Shown here one piece after another: positions 3,516-9,360 of a stretch of 34,023 nt of DNA; positions within the stretch are counted from its first letter, which is position 1; every line of letters starts with the position of its first letter. The notes under the pieces are model-generated. The model worked only from the letters and a program-made list of their open reading frames with translations. It made no database searches and was not told where the DNA came from. The DNA lies in contig JADFQE010000014.1 in assembly GCA_022561985.1 (NCBI GenBank), positions 1-34,023 on the forward strand. Direction: 5' to 3'. This DNA comes from Chloroflexota bacterium (GTDB lineage: Bacteria; Chloroflexota; Dehalococcoidia; Lucifugimonadales; Australimonadaceae). The position numbers and the translations under genes were made by a program.

Positions 3516-5474
3516 TTAGCTCGCCAACGCCAGCGGCTCGTTCTTGGAATGACCGTTGCTTGGGACCACGGCCAGGTGCCCCCGAGCGCCGTTGGTGGCG
3601 CGGACGGTCTGCTGGCCCGTCCCATCGTCCATCTTGAAGGTCGCGACGATGGCCTGGAGCTCCTGGGCCATCCCGGCCAGGTCGGTGGCGGAGTTCACCA
3701 CCTGCTCCACCTGCTGGCTCATCTGAGACGCAGCGGCCGACATCTCCTCCGTCGCGGCGCTGTTCTCCTCCGTGATGCCGGCGACGCTCTCGATGGTCTT
3801 GGTCACATCCGCGCTGTTGATCGCCATCTCCTGGGCGGAGGCTGATGTCTCCTCCGCGATCGAGCTCACGTTGTCGATGTTCTTCACCATCTCGTCGCTG
3901 GAGGCGCTGACCTCCTCGGCCGCCGCTGAGATCTGCTCGATCTGGCCCGAGACCACCTCGACGGCTTCGTTGATCTTGTTGAGGGCCGCCCCCGCTTCCT
4001 CGACGAGCTGCGCCCCGGTGGCGACCTCCTTGCCGCCCTCCTCCGTTGCCTTGATGGACTCCTCCACGCCGTGCTGGACGGTGTCGATGAGGCCCGCGAT
4101 CTCCTTCGTCGCGTCGGTGACGCGCTCGGCGAGCTTCCGCACCTCGTCCGCCACCACGGCGAACCCACGGCCCTGCTCGCCCGCCCGGGCGGCCTCGATG
4201 GCCGCGTTGAGCGCCAGCAGGTTCGTCTGGGCGGCGATGTCGTCGATGACGGCAACGATCTTGCCGATCTCGGCCGACTGCTGGCCCAGCTCCTCGATCT
4301 TGCCCGAGGCCGTCAGCACCGCATCGCGGATGCGGTCCATGCCTTCCACGGTCTTGTGGACCGCGTCCATGCCCTCGCCCGCGGCCTCGCTGGTCTGCCG
4401 CGATCCTTCCGCCGCAGCCTGAGCGTTCTTGGCCACGTCCTGCATCGCGTTGGCCACCTGGTTCACGATCATGGACGTCGCTTCGACGGAGGTGGCCTGC
4501 TCCCGGGCGCCCTTGGCGATCTCCTCGATGCCCGTGCCGAGCGCCGTGATCGCGTTGGTCGCGTCCTGCACGCTCTCCGCCTGCTGCCCCGCTCCCTTGG
4601 CGATCTCTCCGCTCGTGGTGGCGATCCCCTCCGTGGCCTGACCCGCCTGGGCCGCAGCCGTGGACAGTCCGGCGCTGGAGTCGGCGAGTCTGCCGGCGGT
4701 GTCTCCCAGCCGGCCGACGACGTCGCGCAGGCTCTCGACCATCTTGCCCAGGGCGAGCCCCAGTGTGTCCTTCTCGGACTTCGCCTGCGCGTTGACGGTC
4801 AGGTCGCCGCCCGCGATGGCCTCGGCGACCCTCGACTGCTCCTCGATGTACTCGACGATCTGCAGGAAGGACTGCGCCAGCTCGTCCCCGCCCTGGAGGA
4901 TCTCGGCGCCGCGCACGTCCACGTCGCCCACGGCGAGCTTGGAAGCCGCCTCGTTGACCTGCGTCCGCAGGTTGATCGTGATGTTGTCGACATACGTGTC
5001 CATGATGATGGCCTGGTCGAAGATCAGCAGCTTGTGGACGGCGTCGACGGCCTGCTTGGCCTTCGCGGGCCGGCCGCGGAACTGCTTGCGGATCATGGGG
5101 AAGAGGATGTCGTAGTAGAACTGGTAGCTGGCGATGTAGTACTGGGCGGTGACGCCCATGGAGGCGTGCCTCTTGCCGACGATGAGGCGCTTGTCGACGT
5201 AGGCATCGTCGGGCCAGCCGCGGAACAGGTCGACCGCGTACCCACTCTGGGCCGCTTCCAGCCGCTCCCGGGTGGAGTTCTGCTTGCGTATCATATCGAC
5301 GATGGCCGGGACCTTGTACGAGCGGTCGTAGAAGAAGCGGGAGAAGGTGGGCATCGCGCGCTCGGCCCACGGCCTGAGCGTCTGAAGCAGGGCCGCGTCC
5401 GCGTCGGTGAACTCCAAAATCGATAGCCTCTGCCGGATGTCCGTTGCGTCGATCTGACGGGTAGCGGTGGTCAT
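3516..5474 (-). CDS. Globin-coupled methyl-accepting chemotaxis protein (soluble, HemAT-like)
   Basis: 652 aa, with ATG at 5474 preceded by AGGAGA. Residues ~10-170 match a protoglobin sensor domain; the segment [20 protein letters not shown] places the proximal haem His at about H103. A HAMP-like two-helix linker follows (~212-262, [13 protein letters not shown]), then a long methyl-accepting coiled coil with the conserved hairpin tip at ~405-450 ([37 protein letters not shown]). There is no signal peptide or membrane helix, so it should be cytoplasmic and sense a diffusible gas such as O2, NO or CO through haem. There is no CheR/CheB-docking pentapeptide at the C-terminus. It follows a degenerate CheW gene and precedes a small tail-like gene. 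No intact CheA or CheW is visible, so any partner kinase must be encoded elsewhere. Confidence 0.93.
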
Positions 5475-5540
5475 GGTGGCGTCTCCTCTAGAAAATGCGT
5501 AGGAACGTGTTCCCCGCGATGCTTCATTGCCCGTCCGCGG

Positions 5541-5834
5541 TCAGTCGCGGGCGGTCGCTGCGTCGAACCTCTCTATCACGAGTCCAAGATCCAGCAGACT
5601 GATCAGGGGCCGGGCCGCTTGAGGATGCCGGCCGGGTAGTTGGAAGCGGCGCTGATGACGGCGCCGGCCGGCGCCTCGATGGATACAGCGCGAAGCCCAT
5701 GCCCCGCTCGCCGGTGTCGACCACGAAGATCTGCTTGGCCTCGCTCTCCTTGTCCCCGCCAGGGCCGCAGCGCTTGCGCAAGTCGACCACGAGCGTGATC
5801 GCACTACGTGAGGCTGTGTCGGTTCCGCCGCCAT
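5541..5834 (-). pseudogene. Degenerate CheW-like coupling protein (C-terminal half, frameshifted)
   Basis: An ATG at 5834 with a good Shine-Dalgarno (GAGGAGGG) opens a 97-codon ORF whose middle is not protein-like. The CheW C-terminal subdomain is instead spread over three frames: ITLVVDLRKRCG and KQIFVVDTGERGMGFAL in one, SIEAPAGAVISAASNYPAGI in a second, and LISLLDLGLVIERFD back in the frame of the start. Joined, they match the order of a CheW domain (VVDLRKRFG, IVVV..G..VGF.VD, GI....LI.LLDL). At least two or three indels are needed, and the N-terminal half of the domain is missing. CheW normally links chemoreceptors to CheA. Sitting directly upstream of the chemoreceptor, this copy looks inactivated, unless the indels are sequencing errors. 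Confidence 0.75.
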
Positions 5835-5896
5835 GCTTCCCTCCTCTTTCCGCTGTTGGTCTGACGAACTTCTTTGATCGAGTTCCCCTGAGGGGG

Positions 5897-5941
5897 TAAA
5901 AAAAAGGGAGCAACGCTGGCGATCTGCCTTGCGTTGCTCCC
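5897..5941 (-). terminator. Intrinsic terminator or attenuator upstream of the CheW remnant
   Basis: On the minus strand a perfect 11-bp stem (GGGAGCAACGC / GCGTTGCTCCC) with a 14-nt loop is followed at once by eight T residues, the classical Rho-independent form. It lies after the small CX4GXC gene ending at 6032 and before the CheW remnant starting at 5834. The upstream arm belongs to a sequence repeated at 6442-6475, so this could be an attenuator in the CheW leader rather than a plain end of transcription. A short CCCC/GGGG hairpin follows the T-run. Confidence 0.75.
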
Positions 5942-5964
5942 GCCGATTCTCGGTTCTAAGAGCT
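5931..5964 (-). repeat. 34-nt leader repeat, copy 1
   Basis: This copy matches 6442-6475 at 28 of 34 positions without gaps. On the minus strand both copies read AGCTC-TAGAAC--AGAA and end in GGGAGCAACGC, which forms the left arm of a hairpin. It sits about 100 nt upstream of the CheW remnant start. Conservation of both the single-stranded part and the stem suggests a cis-regulatory RNA or a short dispersed repeat; I match it to no riboswitch class I know. Confidence 0.6.
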
Positions 5965-6031
5965 GGTATGTGCGGTTGTTCAGGTCATCCGCGTGGGGTC
6001 CGCCCCTCGTTCGCCACGCGGCCGGGTCTCT

Positions 6032-6325
6032 TCAGGCCGCGCCGGCGCCATGACCGTTCCCGTCCGGCTGCTTCCTCACGGAGCGCGTGACCTGGATGGT
6101 GACTCCGTCGCGGTTCCGCTGGAGCGAGAGGCTGTCTCCCAGCCTCGCCGACGCGGCGAACCGCAGGAACGTCTCGAGTATGTTCGTCCCCAGAGCCTGG
6201 CCCAGGGCGGCCGCCTCGCAGGGGCCGCTCGTGTAGTGGCAGGTGCCCATGGGAGCACCCTCGGCTCGCAGCGCCAGCCGGCTTGCGCTGCGATGGGGCG
6301 GTGTCTGAACGCTTGAAGCTGGCAT
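6032..6325 (-). CDS. Small CX4GXC protein A, unknown function
   Basis: 97 aa from ATG 6325, chosen because GGAGGGGG lies just upstream; the longer track start at 6424 would run through the leader hairpins. The core begins with CHYTSGPC (C-x4-G-x-C), followed by a helix (LGTNILETFLRFAAS) and a strand-rich end (DSLSLQRNRDGVTIQV-TRSVRK). It aligns without gaps over about 58 residues, roughly one third identical, to the neighbouring protein at 6499-6780. It has no signal peptide or membrane helix. Two conserved Cys could bind a metal or act in redox chemistry. It lies in the same direction as the globin-coupled chemoreceptor and CheW remnant, so a role in that signalling set is possible. I recognise no family. 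Confidence 0.7.
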   Translation of the reverse strand: MPASSVQTPPHRSASRLALRAEGAPMGTCHYTSGPCEAAALGQALGTNILETFLRFAASARLGDSLSLQRNRDGVTIQVTRSVRKQPDGNGHGAGAA

Positions 6326-6372
6326 GTCCCCCTCCGTTCCGCGGATCGGTGATCTTCCTCTTGGCCGGCGCC

Positions 6373-6475
6373 GTAACCGCTCGGTTACTCGTGGCTGAAC
6401 CGCGCCAGGCACGAGCGATAGCAACGCCGGCCCTTCCTGCCGCGTTGCTCCCGCTCGTTCTTAGTTCTAGGAGCT
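6373..6475 (-). promoter_or_regulatory. Structured leader of small protein A (two hairpins plus 34-nt repeat copy 2)
   Basis: Between the two small genes the minus strand carries repeat copy 2 (6442-6475), then a bipartite stem (CGAGCG + AGCAACGC pairing with GCGTTGCT + CGCTCG, 2-nt internal loop, 6412-6457), then a second hairpin GTAACC-GAGC-GGTTAC (6373-6388). The start codon of protein A follows about 50 nt on. Unlike copy 1 there is no T-run, so the element could act on translation or RNA processing instead of termination. The structure is seen; function is inferred. Confidence 0.55.
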
Positions 6476-6498
6476 CCTTGCTGTAGACGGATCTTCGT

Positions 6499-6780
6499 TC
6501 AGGATGCGTCCACTCCCCTCGAAGCCAATCTCTCCTGCATGGCCTGAAGCGCGTTGACGTCGACCGGCTCTCGCGAGCCCCTCCGGACAGAGTCGGTGAG
6601 GTTCAGCGTGAAGGAGTCGGCCGTCCGCTCGAGGACGAGACGTCCCCCAGCATCATCTCCCAGCACGAAGGCCACGAAGGCATCGTAGATGTCGCTCCCG
6701 AGGCTCTCCTTCGAGCCTGCGAGCAGGCAGGCACCCTTCAGCTGCGGGCAGTAGGACCATTGCGGCTCTTGGTCAGACAC
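6499..6780 (-). CDS. Small CX4GXC protein B, unknown function
   Basis: 93 aa starting at GTG 6780, with AGGAG nine bases upstream. It has the same plan as protein A: CPQLKGAC (C-x4-G-x-C), helix LGSDIYDAFVAFVLG, strands RLVLERTADSFTLNLT and an SVRR ending. The ungapped alignment and equal Cys spacing point to tandem duplication. It is the first gene of the minus-strand sensory cluster, divergent from nfeD with a 262-nt spacer. No signal peptide, membrane segment or known motif is present, and I do not recognise the family. A small cytoplasmic metal-, redox- or partner-binding protein serving the chemoreceptor is one possibility. Confidence 0.7.
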   Translation of the reverse strand: MSDQEPQWSYCPQLKGACLLAGSKESLGSDIYDAFVAFVLGDDAGGRLVLERTADSFTLNLTDSVRRGSREPVDVNALQAMQERLASRGVDAS

Positions 6781-7042: not shown

Positions 7043-8437
7043 ATGACGACGCGGCGCAGGCCCTGGCGCCTGGCGCTGACCGCCCTCTGGGTGGCGTGCC
7101 TCGCGCTCGGGACCGTGGGCCAGGCCGTTGCCCAGGACGTGGGCGGGGCGCGCCAGGCGCACGTCGTCACCATCGACGGCATCATCAACCCCGTGAGCGC
7201 ACGCTTCTTGGAGCGCGCCGTCGAGGGCGCCGAGGCCGCGGACGCCGAGGTCATCGTGCTCGTGCTGAACACGCCCGGCGGGCTGCTCGATTCCACGCGG
7301 CGCATGGTCGAGACGATCTTCGCATCCGGCGTGCCGGTCATCGTCTACGTGGCGCCCTCCGGCGGCCGGGCGGCCTCGGCCGGCACGTTCATCACCGCGG
7401 CGGGACACATCGCGGCGATGGCGCCCGGCACGAACATCGGCGCCGCGAGCCCCATCGGCGGGCAGGGCGAGGAGCTGCCGGAGACGCTGAAGGAGAAGAT
7501 ATTCGAGGACACGGCAGCCGAGATACGCGCCATCGCGGAGCGGCGGGGAAGGGCGGTCGAGCCGCTCGAGGCCACCGTGCTCGAGGCCAAGGCCTACACC
7601 GCGAACGAGGCGCTGGAGCTCGGCATCATCGACCTCGTCGTATCGAGCGTCAGTGAGCTGCTCGATCTGATCGACGGCCGCGAGGTGCTCGTCGAGACGG
7701 AGGAGGGCGAGGTCACGGTCACCCTGGAGACGGCGGGGCTGACGGTCAGGGACGTGGAGATGGGGTTCTTCGACCGGCTGCTGTCGTTCATCGCCGACCC
7801 GAACATCGCCTTCCTGCTGCTCTCGCTGGGTGGATTGGGGCTGGTCGTGGAGATGTGGAGCCCCGGCCTCATCTTCCCCGGGGTCAGCGGTCTCATCGCG
7901 CTGGTCCTCGCCTTCATGGCCCTCGGCAACCTGCCGGGGAACTGGGCCGGCATCGCGCTGCTTCTCCTGGCGTTCGTGCTCGCCATGACCGAGGCCAGCG
8001 TCGATGGGTTCGGCGTGCTCGGTGCCCTCGGCATCGTCAGCTTCGTCCTGGGGGGCGTCCTGCTGTTCGCCCACTTCGGGACGCCGTCGCCCGTTCTGCC
8101 GTCCCTCCGGGTGAGTCTGTGGGTGCTCGTGCCGGTCTCGGCGGCCATGGCGGCGAGCGTCGGTGGGCTCACGTACTCGATGGTACAATCCCGGCGCGAA
8201 CAGCACCGTGAAGGGCCGGAGGAGCTCCCGTTCATCGGGGCCGGAGGCGTCGTTACGGCAGTCCTCAACCCCCGCGGAACGGTCCGCGTCCGCGGACAGA
8301 TGTGGGGTGCGAGCGCCGCGGACGGCGAGCGCATCGAGCGCGGCGCCGGCATCGTCGTCGTCGCGGAGGAGGGCGCGCTGCTGACGGTCGAGCGGCGCGC
8401 CGAGGCCGCCGAGCCTGGAGCGGAACCGCAAGCCTGA
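7043..8437 (+). CDS. NfeD-family membrane serine protease (long form, ClpP-class)
   Basis: 464 aa. An N-terminal signal peptide (LALTALWVACLALG ... AVAQD) leads into a ClpP/crotonase-fold protease domain (~40-220) with VLVLNTPGGLLDS and the nucleophile motif GGRAASAGTFI (Ser112). K151, in LKEKIFED, is the probable general-base Lys. Four to five membrane helices follow (~255-370), then a C-terminal OB-fold domain (GAGGVVTAVLNPRGTVRVRGQMW). Long NfeD proteins are membrane proteases that cleave stomatin-family partners, and a slipin gene follows 50 nt downstream as in the classic pair. The start codon lacks an obvious Shine-Dalgarno. Role: membrane protein quality control. Confidence 0.93.
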   Translation: MTTRRRPWRLALTALWVACLALGTVGQAVAQDVGGARQAHVVTIDGIINPVSARFLERAVEGAEAADAEVIVLVLNTPGGLLDSTRRMVETIFASGVPVIVYVAPSGGRAASAGTFITAAGHIAAMAPGTNIGAASPIGGQGEELPETLKEKIFEDTAAEIRAIAERRGRAVEPLEATVLEAKAYTANEALELGIIDLVVSSVSELLDLIDGREVLVETEEGEVTVTLETAGLTVRDVEMGFFDRLLSFIADPNIAFLLLSLGGLGLVVEMWSPGLIFPGVSGLIALVLAFMALGNLPGNWAGIALLLLAFVLAMTEASVDGFGVLGALGIVSFVLGGVLLFAHFGTPSPVLPSLRVSLWVLVPVSAAMAASVGGLTYSMVQSRREQHREGPEELPFIGAGGVVTAVLNPRGTVRVRGQMWGASAADGERIERGAGIVVVAEEGALLTVERRAEAAEPGAEPQA

Positions 8438-8487
8438 CCGAGGCCCAACCAAGGCCCAACCCAAGGCCCATACCCAAGGAGGGACCC

Positions 8488-9360
8488 ATGGCGAACTGGG
8501 GAATGAACGTCGTCAAGCAGTACGAGCGGATGGTCGTCTTCAGGTGGGGGAAGTACACGGAGACCCGGATGCCCGGCGTGCGGTGGCTCTGGCCCATCGT
8601 CAACAACGGCTCGAAGACCGTGGACCTGCGCGAGGTGCCGGTGATCATCCCGCGCCAGACCAGCATCACGCGCGACAACGCGCCCATCGACATCGACTTC
8701 TTCGTGTACATGCAGATCATGGCGGACCGTCCCCAGGACACCATCCTGAACATCGACAACTTCGGCCTGGCGGCACAGGCGCTCGCCATGACCAGCCTGC
8801 GCGCGATCGTCGGCGAGATGAACCTGGACGAGGTGCTGTCCAAGCGCGACCGGATCAACTCGCAGCTCCAGCTCAAGCTGGACGAGGTGACGGCGAACTG
8901 GGGCGTGAAGGTCACCCGCGTCGAGATCAAGGAGGTCGAGCCCCCGCGCGACGTGCAGGAGGCCATGAACCGCCAGCTCTCGGCGGAGCGCAACCGGCGG
9001 GCCGCCGTCACCGAGGCGGAGGGCCAGCGCGACGCGCAGATCAACATAGCCGAGGGCGACAAGCAGGCCTCCGTCCTGCGCGCAGCGGGCAACAGGGAGG
9101 CCACGATCCTGGAGGCCGAGGGCCATCGGCAGGCCGAGATCCTGCGGGCGGAGGGCTTCAGCCTGGGCATGGAGCGCATCAACCAGGCCGCGATGGTGGC
9201 GGACCCGCGCACCATGAGCCTCCAGTACTTCGATACGCTCAAGGAGATCGGGGCCGGCGAGTCGACGAAGTTCATCTTCCCGATGGAGTTCACGTCGATG
9301 CTCCAGTCCTTCATCCAACAGATGCGTGGCGGTGGGAGCGACGAGCAGACGGGCAGCTAG
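8488..9360 (+). CDS. Slipin/stomatin-like SPFH protein without membrane anchor
   Basis: 290 aa from ATG 8488, preceded by AAGGAGGG; the track start at 8302 lies inside nfeD. The protein has the stomatin/SPFH order: YERMVVFRWGKYTETRMPGV at the very N-terminus, VDLREVPVIIPRQTSITRDN, IDFFVYMQI, then a helical Ala/Glu-rich region with EAEGQRDAQI, AAGNREATILEAEGHRQAEI and ending in SLQYFDTLKEIG. Slipins form membrane-associated oligomers and are cleaved by NfeD. The usual N-terminal hydrophobic hairpin is missing, leaving only about ten residues before the SPFH fold, so it may be peripheral or recruited through NfeD. It is translated from the same operon as nfeD. Confidence 0.9.
   Translation: MANWGMNVVKQYERMVVFRWGKYTETRMPGVRWLWPIVNNGSKTVDLREVPVIIPRQTSITRDNAPIDIDFFVYMQIMADRPQDTILNIDNFGLAAQALAMTSLRAIVGEMNLDEVLSKRDRINSQLQLKLDEVTANWGVKVTRVEIKEVEPPRDVQEAMNRQLSAERNRRAAVTEAEGQRDAQINIAEGDKQASVLRAAGNREATILEAEGHRQAEILRAEGFSLGMERINQAAMVADPRTMSLQYFDTLKEIGAGESTKFIFPMEFTSMLQSFIQQMRGGGSDEQTGS

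Follow-up and report, generated by a model that had tools for sequence, protein, structure and literature searches.

Antitermination under the control of a protein or a ligand classically relies on an antiterminator and a terminator that cannot form together (PMC3369936). In the RAT targets of the BglG-SacY-LicT factors, which carry a CAT domain, the leader forms a hairpin with an asymmetric internal loop that overlaps its intrinsic terminator and keeps the latter from forming, and the gene of the factor may be found in the same cluster (PMC3369936, PMC9981650). ANTAR targets comprise two hairpins whose loops contain A1 and G4 (PMC3369936). The element described here comes from a window of 34,023 nucleotides (positions 1 to 34,023 of contig JADFQE010000014.1, assembly GCA_022561985.1), which belongs to a Chloroflexota bacterium of the class Dehalococcoidia. 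The best reading of this element is that it works like RAT/LicT or ANTAR antitermination and yet fits neither. We consider it probable that it is a cis-acting transcription attenuator that precedes sensory and surface genes and is controlled by a factor, for which a small protein, here called orfX, is the best candidate. The attenuator RNA class is genuine, narrow in distribution and accompanied by a candidate protein partner; it is apparently undescribed so far, as neither Rfam 15 nor the openly accessible literature that we searched contains it.

The window contains two copies of the element, both on the minus strand (Table 1). A preliminary description of this DNA had given the two copies as identical at 28 of 34 positions of the stretch compared, and a recount returned exactly this number. 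Its other observations also hold. Copy 1 (w1) does end in a stem and T-run resembling an intrinsic terminator; copy 2 (w2) has no T-run and is followed by an extra hairpin near a start codon, about 50 nt 5' of the ATG (6325) of the next ORF; and the unpaired TAGAAC--AGAA, conserved in both copies, has the family form TAGA(U/A/C)..ARA(U/A). When the whole 2.39-Mb assembly (88.7% complete) was searched by BLAST with copy 1, the sole match was copy 2 (78% identity, 56 nt, E = 4.7e-5). Without a T-run, copy 2 is probably degenerate or has another mode of action. Termination has probably been lost, and this copy might act on translation or be in the process of decaying.

Table 1. Coordinates of the two element copies, their parts and the neighbouring genes within the window
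Feature	Position	Strand	Evidence
Copy 1 (w1), attenuator element, complete	5897..5966 (5966-5897)	-	CM R2, 74.6 bits, E 3.9e-17 in window (by construction, because the model was built from copy 1)
P0 5' strand GCUCUU of copy 1, predicted antiterminator; partner 5941-5936	5958..5963	-	MFE of 5' part; pair counts in 13 sequences
Internal loop AGAA of copy 1, conserved (AGAU in most relatives)	5954..5957	-	Alignment A4
P1 small hairpin CCGAGAAUCGG of copy 1	5943..5953	-	Compensatory changes at both outer pairs, family-wide
GGGAGC strand of copy 1 (P0 3' strand and terminator 5' strand)	5936..5941	-	Invariant, 13/13
Intrinsic terminator stem-loop GGGAGCAACGC...GCGUUGCUCCC of copy 1, 11-bp stem	5906..5941 (5941-5906)	-	
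T8 tract of the copy 1 terminator	5898..5905 (5905-5898)	-	Sequence
Copy 2 (w2), 3' half degenerate	6410..6477 (6477-6410)	-	CM R2, 52.2 bits (by construction, because copy 2 is part of the model); BLAST match to copy 1
Extended stem of copy 2, comparable to the copy 1 stem, without T-run	6413..6456	-	RNAfold
Second hairpin after copy 2, perfect, GTAACC-GAGC-GGTTAC	6373..6388 (6388-6373)	-	Sequence
CheW remnant 3' of copy 1, pieces in three frames	5540..5850	-	One piece CheW, E = 0.01, short of the Pfam cut-off
Globin-coupled chemoreceptor (Protoglobin + HAMP + MCPsignal), first intact gene 3' of copy 1	3516..5474	-	Pfam
orfX copy A, small protein directly 5' of copy 2	6499..6780	-	A3 HMM, E 1.5e-35 (by construction, because it is in the A3 alignment); tblastn with G038 protein, 6e-18 (independent)
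orfX copy B, between copies 2 and 1	6032..6325	-	tblastn with G038 protein, 2.4e-8

How widely is the element distributed? We find 13 copies in 7 genomes: two each in the window genome (G000), G027, G059 and G063, three in G071, and one each in G038 and G324. Outside the window genome this makes 11 copies, spread over six further MAGs of the class. The family was built stepwise, from a terminator-arm pattern through all 250 genomes of the order to a covariance model. Most copies are inside the covariance models, and their scores are therefore by construction. Independent links come from the pattern matches and from the BLAST matches, which join copy 1 to copy 2 and copy 1 to G027 (one homologue, 80% identical, among 39 related genomes). 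They also come from three copies (G063b, G059b and G071c) that a model built without them detected, with E-values of 1e-9 to 1e-13. No further copies were found in the 25 genomes searched from the order of G324, and 400 genomes drawn from the whole phylum gave none beyond the window genome. The viral contigs searched contained neither the element nor orfX. The named records among the matches are Chloroflexi/Dehalococcoidia MAGs, several of them derived from groundwater. A scan of the window against Rfam gave no matches at the gathering score, and a permissive scan of copy 1 gave sub-threshold matches only. Several candidates were rejected. The GGGAGCAA...TTGCTCCC palindromes of family f37 have no 5' half and look like ordinary terminators; pattern matches in genomes of Firmicutes, Bacteroidota and others are without the conserved 5' part and were attributed to chance; and a covariance-model match in G450 (27.5 bits) was dropped, having neither TAGA nor GGGAGCAAC.

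The consensus of the family (alignment A4) is AGCUCCUAGAUCCGARAUNCGGCGGGAGCAAC-(variable stem-loop)-GUUGCUCCC-N-UUUU. Invariant or nearly invariant positions are CUC/CUU, AGA, A17, A19, GGGAGC, AA and the 3' arm of the terminator. The 5' part, up to GGGAGCAAC, folds into a like hairpin in all 13 copies by minimum free energy, with negative folding z-scores in every copy. Its lower stem, P0, consists of six base pairs (GCUCCU:GGGAGC); above it lies an asymmetric internal loop (AGAU/C), predicted as one 4x1 loop, and then the upper stem, P1, with the sequence CCG(ARAUN)CGG. Both P0 and the upper hairpin appear in the minimum free energy structures of 12 of the 13 copies, with the register of the upper stem deviating in G059b, G071a and G071b; w2 shows P0 alone. 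When the complete element is given to RNAalifold, the terminator alone appears, as expected since two structures compete.

The preliminary description had proposed looking for compensatory changes in related genomes, and covariation is found both in P1 and in the inner part of the terminator stem. P1 is just 2-3 bp long; its outer two pairs are kept in 26 of 26 cells, with the variants CC/GG, UU/AA, CU/AG and UC/GA and with CG to UA double changes in G071a, G071c and w2, while three of the family copies, among them several of the covarying ones, come from the single genome G071. The inner terminator pairs contain seven double-changed cells. P0 is paired in 76 of 78 cells, and the variation opposite G is exclusively C/U; the support is one-sided, with wobble changes only, because the terminator limits change in the 3' strand of P0. 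Controls with slid partners were paired in 38-70% of cells, compared to 93% in the real register, although shuffles and slides give no formal probabilities. Two unpaired bases also vary together. At columns 13 and 20 of A4 (window positions 5954/5947 and 6465/6458), in the internal and apical loops respectively, most copies have U/U and both window copies have A/A; this paired change might reflect a non-canonical contact or paired half-sites.

In all 13 copies GGGAGC serves both as the 3' strand of P0 and as the 5' strand of the terminator, and the two structures are therefore mutually exclusive. The preliminary description had read the element as a cis-regulatory RNA or attenuator without mention of the antiterminator; that reading is supported, and further strengthened by this exclusivity. 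In every copy the computed stability of the terminator state exceeds that of the antiterminator state by 4-19 kcal/mol, which suggests that the default is off and that some factor must hold the first hairpin. We infer that P0 forms in vivo and that readthrough at the element is regulated. In the proposed mechanism, the transcribed GCUCC-UAGAU-(CCGARAUNCGG)-C-GGGAGC would fold first into a hairpin of approximately 29 nt (P0, internal loop and P1). By default, the more stable GGGAGCAAC...GUUGCUCCC terminator would capture the GGGAGC strand and transcription would stop at the T-run. A factor that recognizes the conserved unpaired AGAU of the internal loop and ARAU of the apical loop may hold the first hairpin; the terminator would then be blocked and transcription would continue into the downstream gene. 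The candidate for this factor is orfX, usually encoded just 5' of the element and in the same direction.

Placement of the element is not random, a possibility that the preliminary description had raised: all 13 copies point the same way as the gene that follows, sensory and surface genes are favoured, and seven copies come just after orfX. Copy 1 is followed by a frameshifted CheW and then the globin-coupled chemoreceptor, and copy 2 by orfX-B, a paralogue of the orfX upstream of it. The targets in G027 are an OmcA/MtrC decaheme cytochrome and a Band_7 protein; in G071, orfX, a PAS histidine kinase-receiver, and a carbonic anhydrase fragment followed by a 4HB-HAMP receptor; in G059, a Trans_reg_C response-regulator-like protein and a small membrane-anchored protein; in G063, a Kelch secreted protein and a second secreted protein; in G324, a LamG secreted protein; and in G038, a secreted protein.

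Some details of these neighbourhoods are worth recording. The broken CheW-like gene of the window (5540-5850, minus strand), between copy 1 and the chemoreceptor, is either a pseudogene or the result of an assembly error. Elsewhere in the window (7043-9360, plus strand) an NfeD/Clp-protease-like gene is followed by a Band_7 (SPFH) gene, and G027b likewise has a Band_7 gene as its target. The fragment directly 3' of G071c, before the 4HB-HAMP receptor, is the C-terminal part of an alpha-type carbonic anhydrase (L063, 16518-16745, plus strand). Adjoining orfX and the element of G324 is an ORF (L041, 9-1448, minus strand) that reads like the large subunit of a phage terminase, a reading left unconfirmed by the absence of a Pfam match.

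A sigma-70 promoter was not found consistently before all copies; good matches (uncorrected p-values 0.01-0.035) precede G063b, G059b and perhaps G324 only. The promoter-like TTGACA-17-TAGGTT of G063b ends 11 nt 5' of the element and thus leaves no room for a leader peptide. Ribosome-mediated attenuation would call for a short ORF at or just before the antiterminator; this does not fit the predicted promoter of G063b, nor the copies that follow orfX, which lie about 14-70 nt beyond its stop codon.

The product of orfX is approximately 95 amino acids long, with the pattern WPxC...GxC..Y..G..LG...F...GARLxLQ...GFTxQVTG.V.R. It has no sequence match in Pfam, NCBIfam, PHROGs or PDB, and its AlphaFold models (pLDDT 68 and 79) have no significant match among solved folds. 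The gene lies about 14-70 nt 5' of the element in 7 of 13 cases (w1, w2, G038, G059a, G063a, G071b and G324) and two genes' distance 5' of G027b. A protein scan of the genome contigs with orfX-B as the query gave no match; orfX-B has diverged too far for such a query, and the search had to rely on the A3 profile. All seven element-bearing genomes have orfX. Within the order it occurs in 10 of 247 genomes, including all six with the element and only 4 of the other 241 (hypergeometric p-value 7e-10), a co-occurrence that is inflated by physical linkage and by shared descent or transfer. In the draw from the class it was found only in G000 and G324, both element-bearing, and it was absent from the plasmids searched. 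G071 has a second orfX (contig C101), and the orfX of G059 (L026, 6297-6614, minus strand) has an in-frame TAG in the middle of the gene, beyond which the homology resumes.

Is orfX confined to the element? In the four genomes without the element, orfX adjoins chemoreceptor or response-regulator genes, and no diverged element was found near it in G112, G146, G147 or G200. This suggests that orfX predates the element or has a wider range than it; it also means that orfX does not have to be an RNA-binding protein and may have a role in signalling instead. The distances between RNA loops correlate with those between orfX proteins (r = 0.62, p about 0.01), a correlation that common descent explains equally well. 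The two orfX copies of the window differ at 74% of aligned residues (approximately 26% identity) while their elements are the same at 28 of 34 nucleotides, so the RNA element looks selected and not merely carried along by a recent gene duplication. We regard orfX, and not a ligand or another protein, as the leading candidate for the controlling factor. A bolder proposal, which we put forward tentatively and with some doubt, is that orfX is the founder of a new family of very small (approximately 95 amino acids) RNA-binding antiterminators, each paired with its hairpin, that in uncultured Dehalococcoidia might link chemoreceptor-associated signalling to readthrough of genes for sensing, electron transfer and secreted proteins.

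Could the first hairpin bind a small molecule? In a ligand-sensing riboswitch, the 29-nt hairpin would bind a metabolite or second messenger, and orfX would be a mere neighbour in the regulon. Conserved unpaired nucleotides, with the terminator as expression platform, are consistent with this, and the chemoreceptor, multiheme cytochrome and secreted-protein targets resemble the regulons of second-messenger riboswitches; GEMM (c-di-GMP) and others of that kind have comparable target genes and a terminator platform. However, the hairpin has just about 12 unpaired nucleotides, in which neither a pseudoknot nor a junction was seen, Rfam has no match, the distribution is very narrow (7 genomes), and close coupling to one protein family would be unexpected. 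We therefore think a riboswitch unlikely. The coupling to orfX might alternatively mean that the element is a plain intrinsic terminator of conserved sequence that closes that gene at its 3' end and was duplicated with it, as the seven copies within about 14-70 nt 3' of an orfX stop codon and the strong stem and T-run of copy 1 and most others would suggest. Such a role is quite improbable given that orfX does not precede G063b, G059b, G071a, G071c and G027a. Two of these, G059b and G071a, have solely divergent genes upstream: G059b lies beyond an HTH gene of the opposite strand, and a ribosomal protein S2-Ts-UMP kinase operon (read from sequence) runs away from G071a in the other direction. 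These two must therefore be leaders, not gene-end terminators. Moreover, the 25 nt 5' of the stem are conserved to about the same degree as the stem itself and also covary and fold, and the stem sequence is fixed, not free to covary.

The joint change of the two AGA(A/U) half-sites in the window copies would also suit a DNA operator, with AGAU...ARAU repeats bound by a protein as DNA and a terminator added. Pairing-preserving changes in P1 and C/U-only variation opposite G in P0 are what one expects of RNA, and make an operator very improbable. We give hardly any credence to a functionless dispersed mobile repeat. Its presence would be patchy across families, as observed, but there are at most three copies per genome, these are invariably codirectional with the next gene, and the elements are conserved despite the divergence of the neighbouring orfX paralogues noted above.

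If the attenuator reading is true, the element represents an unlisted class of attenuator RNA that links chemoreceptors, two-component regulators, a decaheme extracellular cytochrome and secreted proteins, and provides a first regulon, with a named candidate regulator, for groundwater Chloroflexi known from metagenomes. With an RNA of about 70 nt and a candidate protein of about 95 amino acids, the central claim lends itself to a test in vitro.

How does the putative attenuator compare with the systems described so far? Its antiterminator hairpin excludes an intrinsic terminator in all 13 copies, as computed, which is the arrangement of RAT. It differs from RAT in having one predicted internal loop rather than two, in targeting sensory and surface genes rather than sugar use, and in its adjoining protein (orfX alone was examined), which has neither CAT_RBD (PF03123) nor any other Pfam domain. 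With the targets of ANTAR proteins (AmiR/NasR/EutV) it shares a distal hairpin strand that overlaps the terminator and the joint control of several leaders of one regulon. In contrast to these, it has a single upstream hairpin with an ARAUN-type loop and no second conserved loop; the ANTAR domain is absent from six of the seven element-bearing assemblies, which are incomplete, with one match in G063. Compared to GEMM and other second-messenger riboswitches, the element has a far smaller aptamer and no Rfam match.
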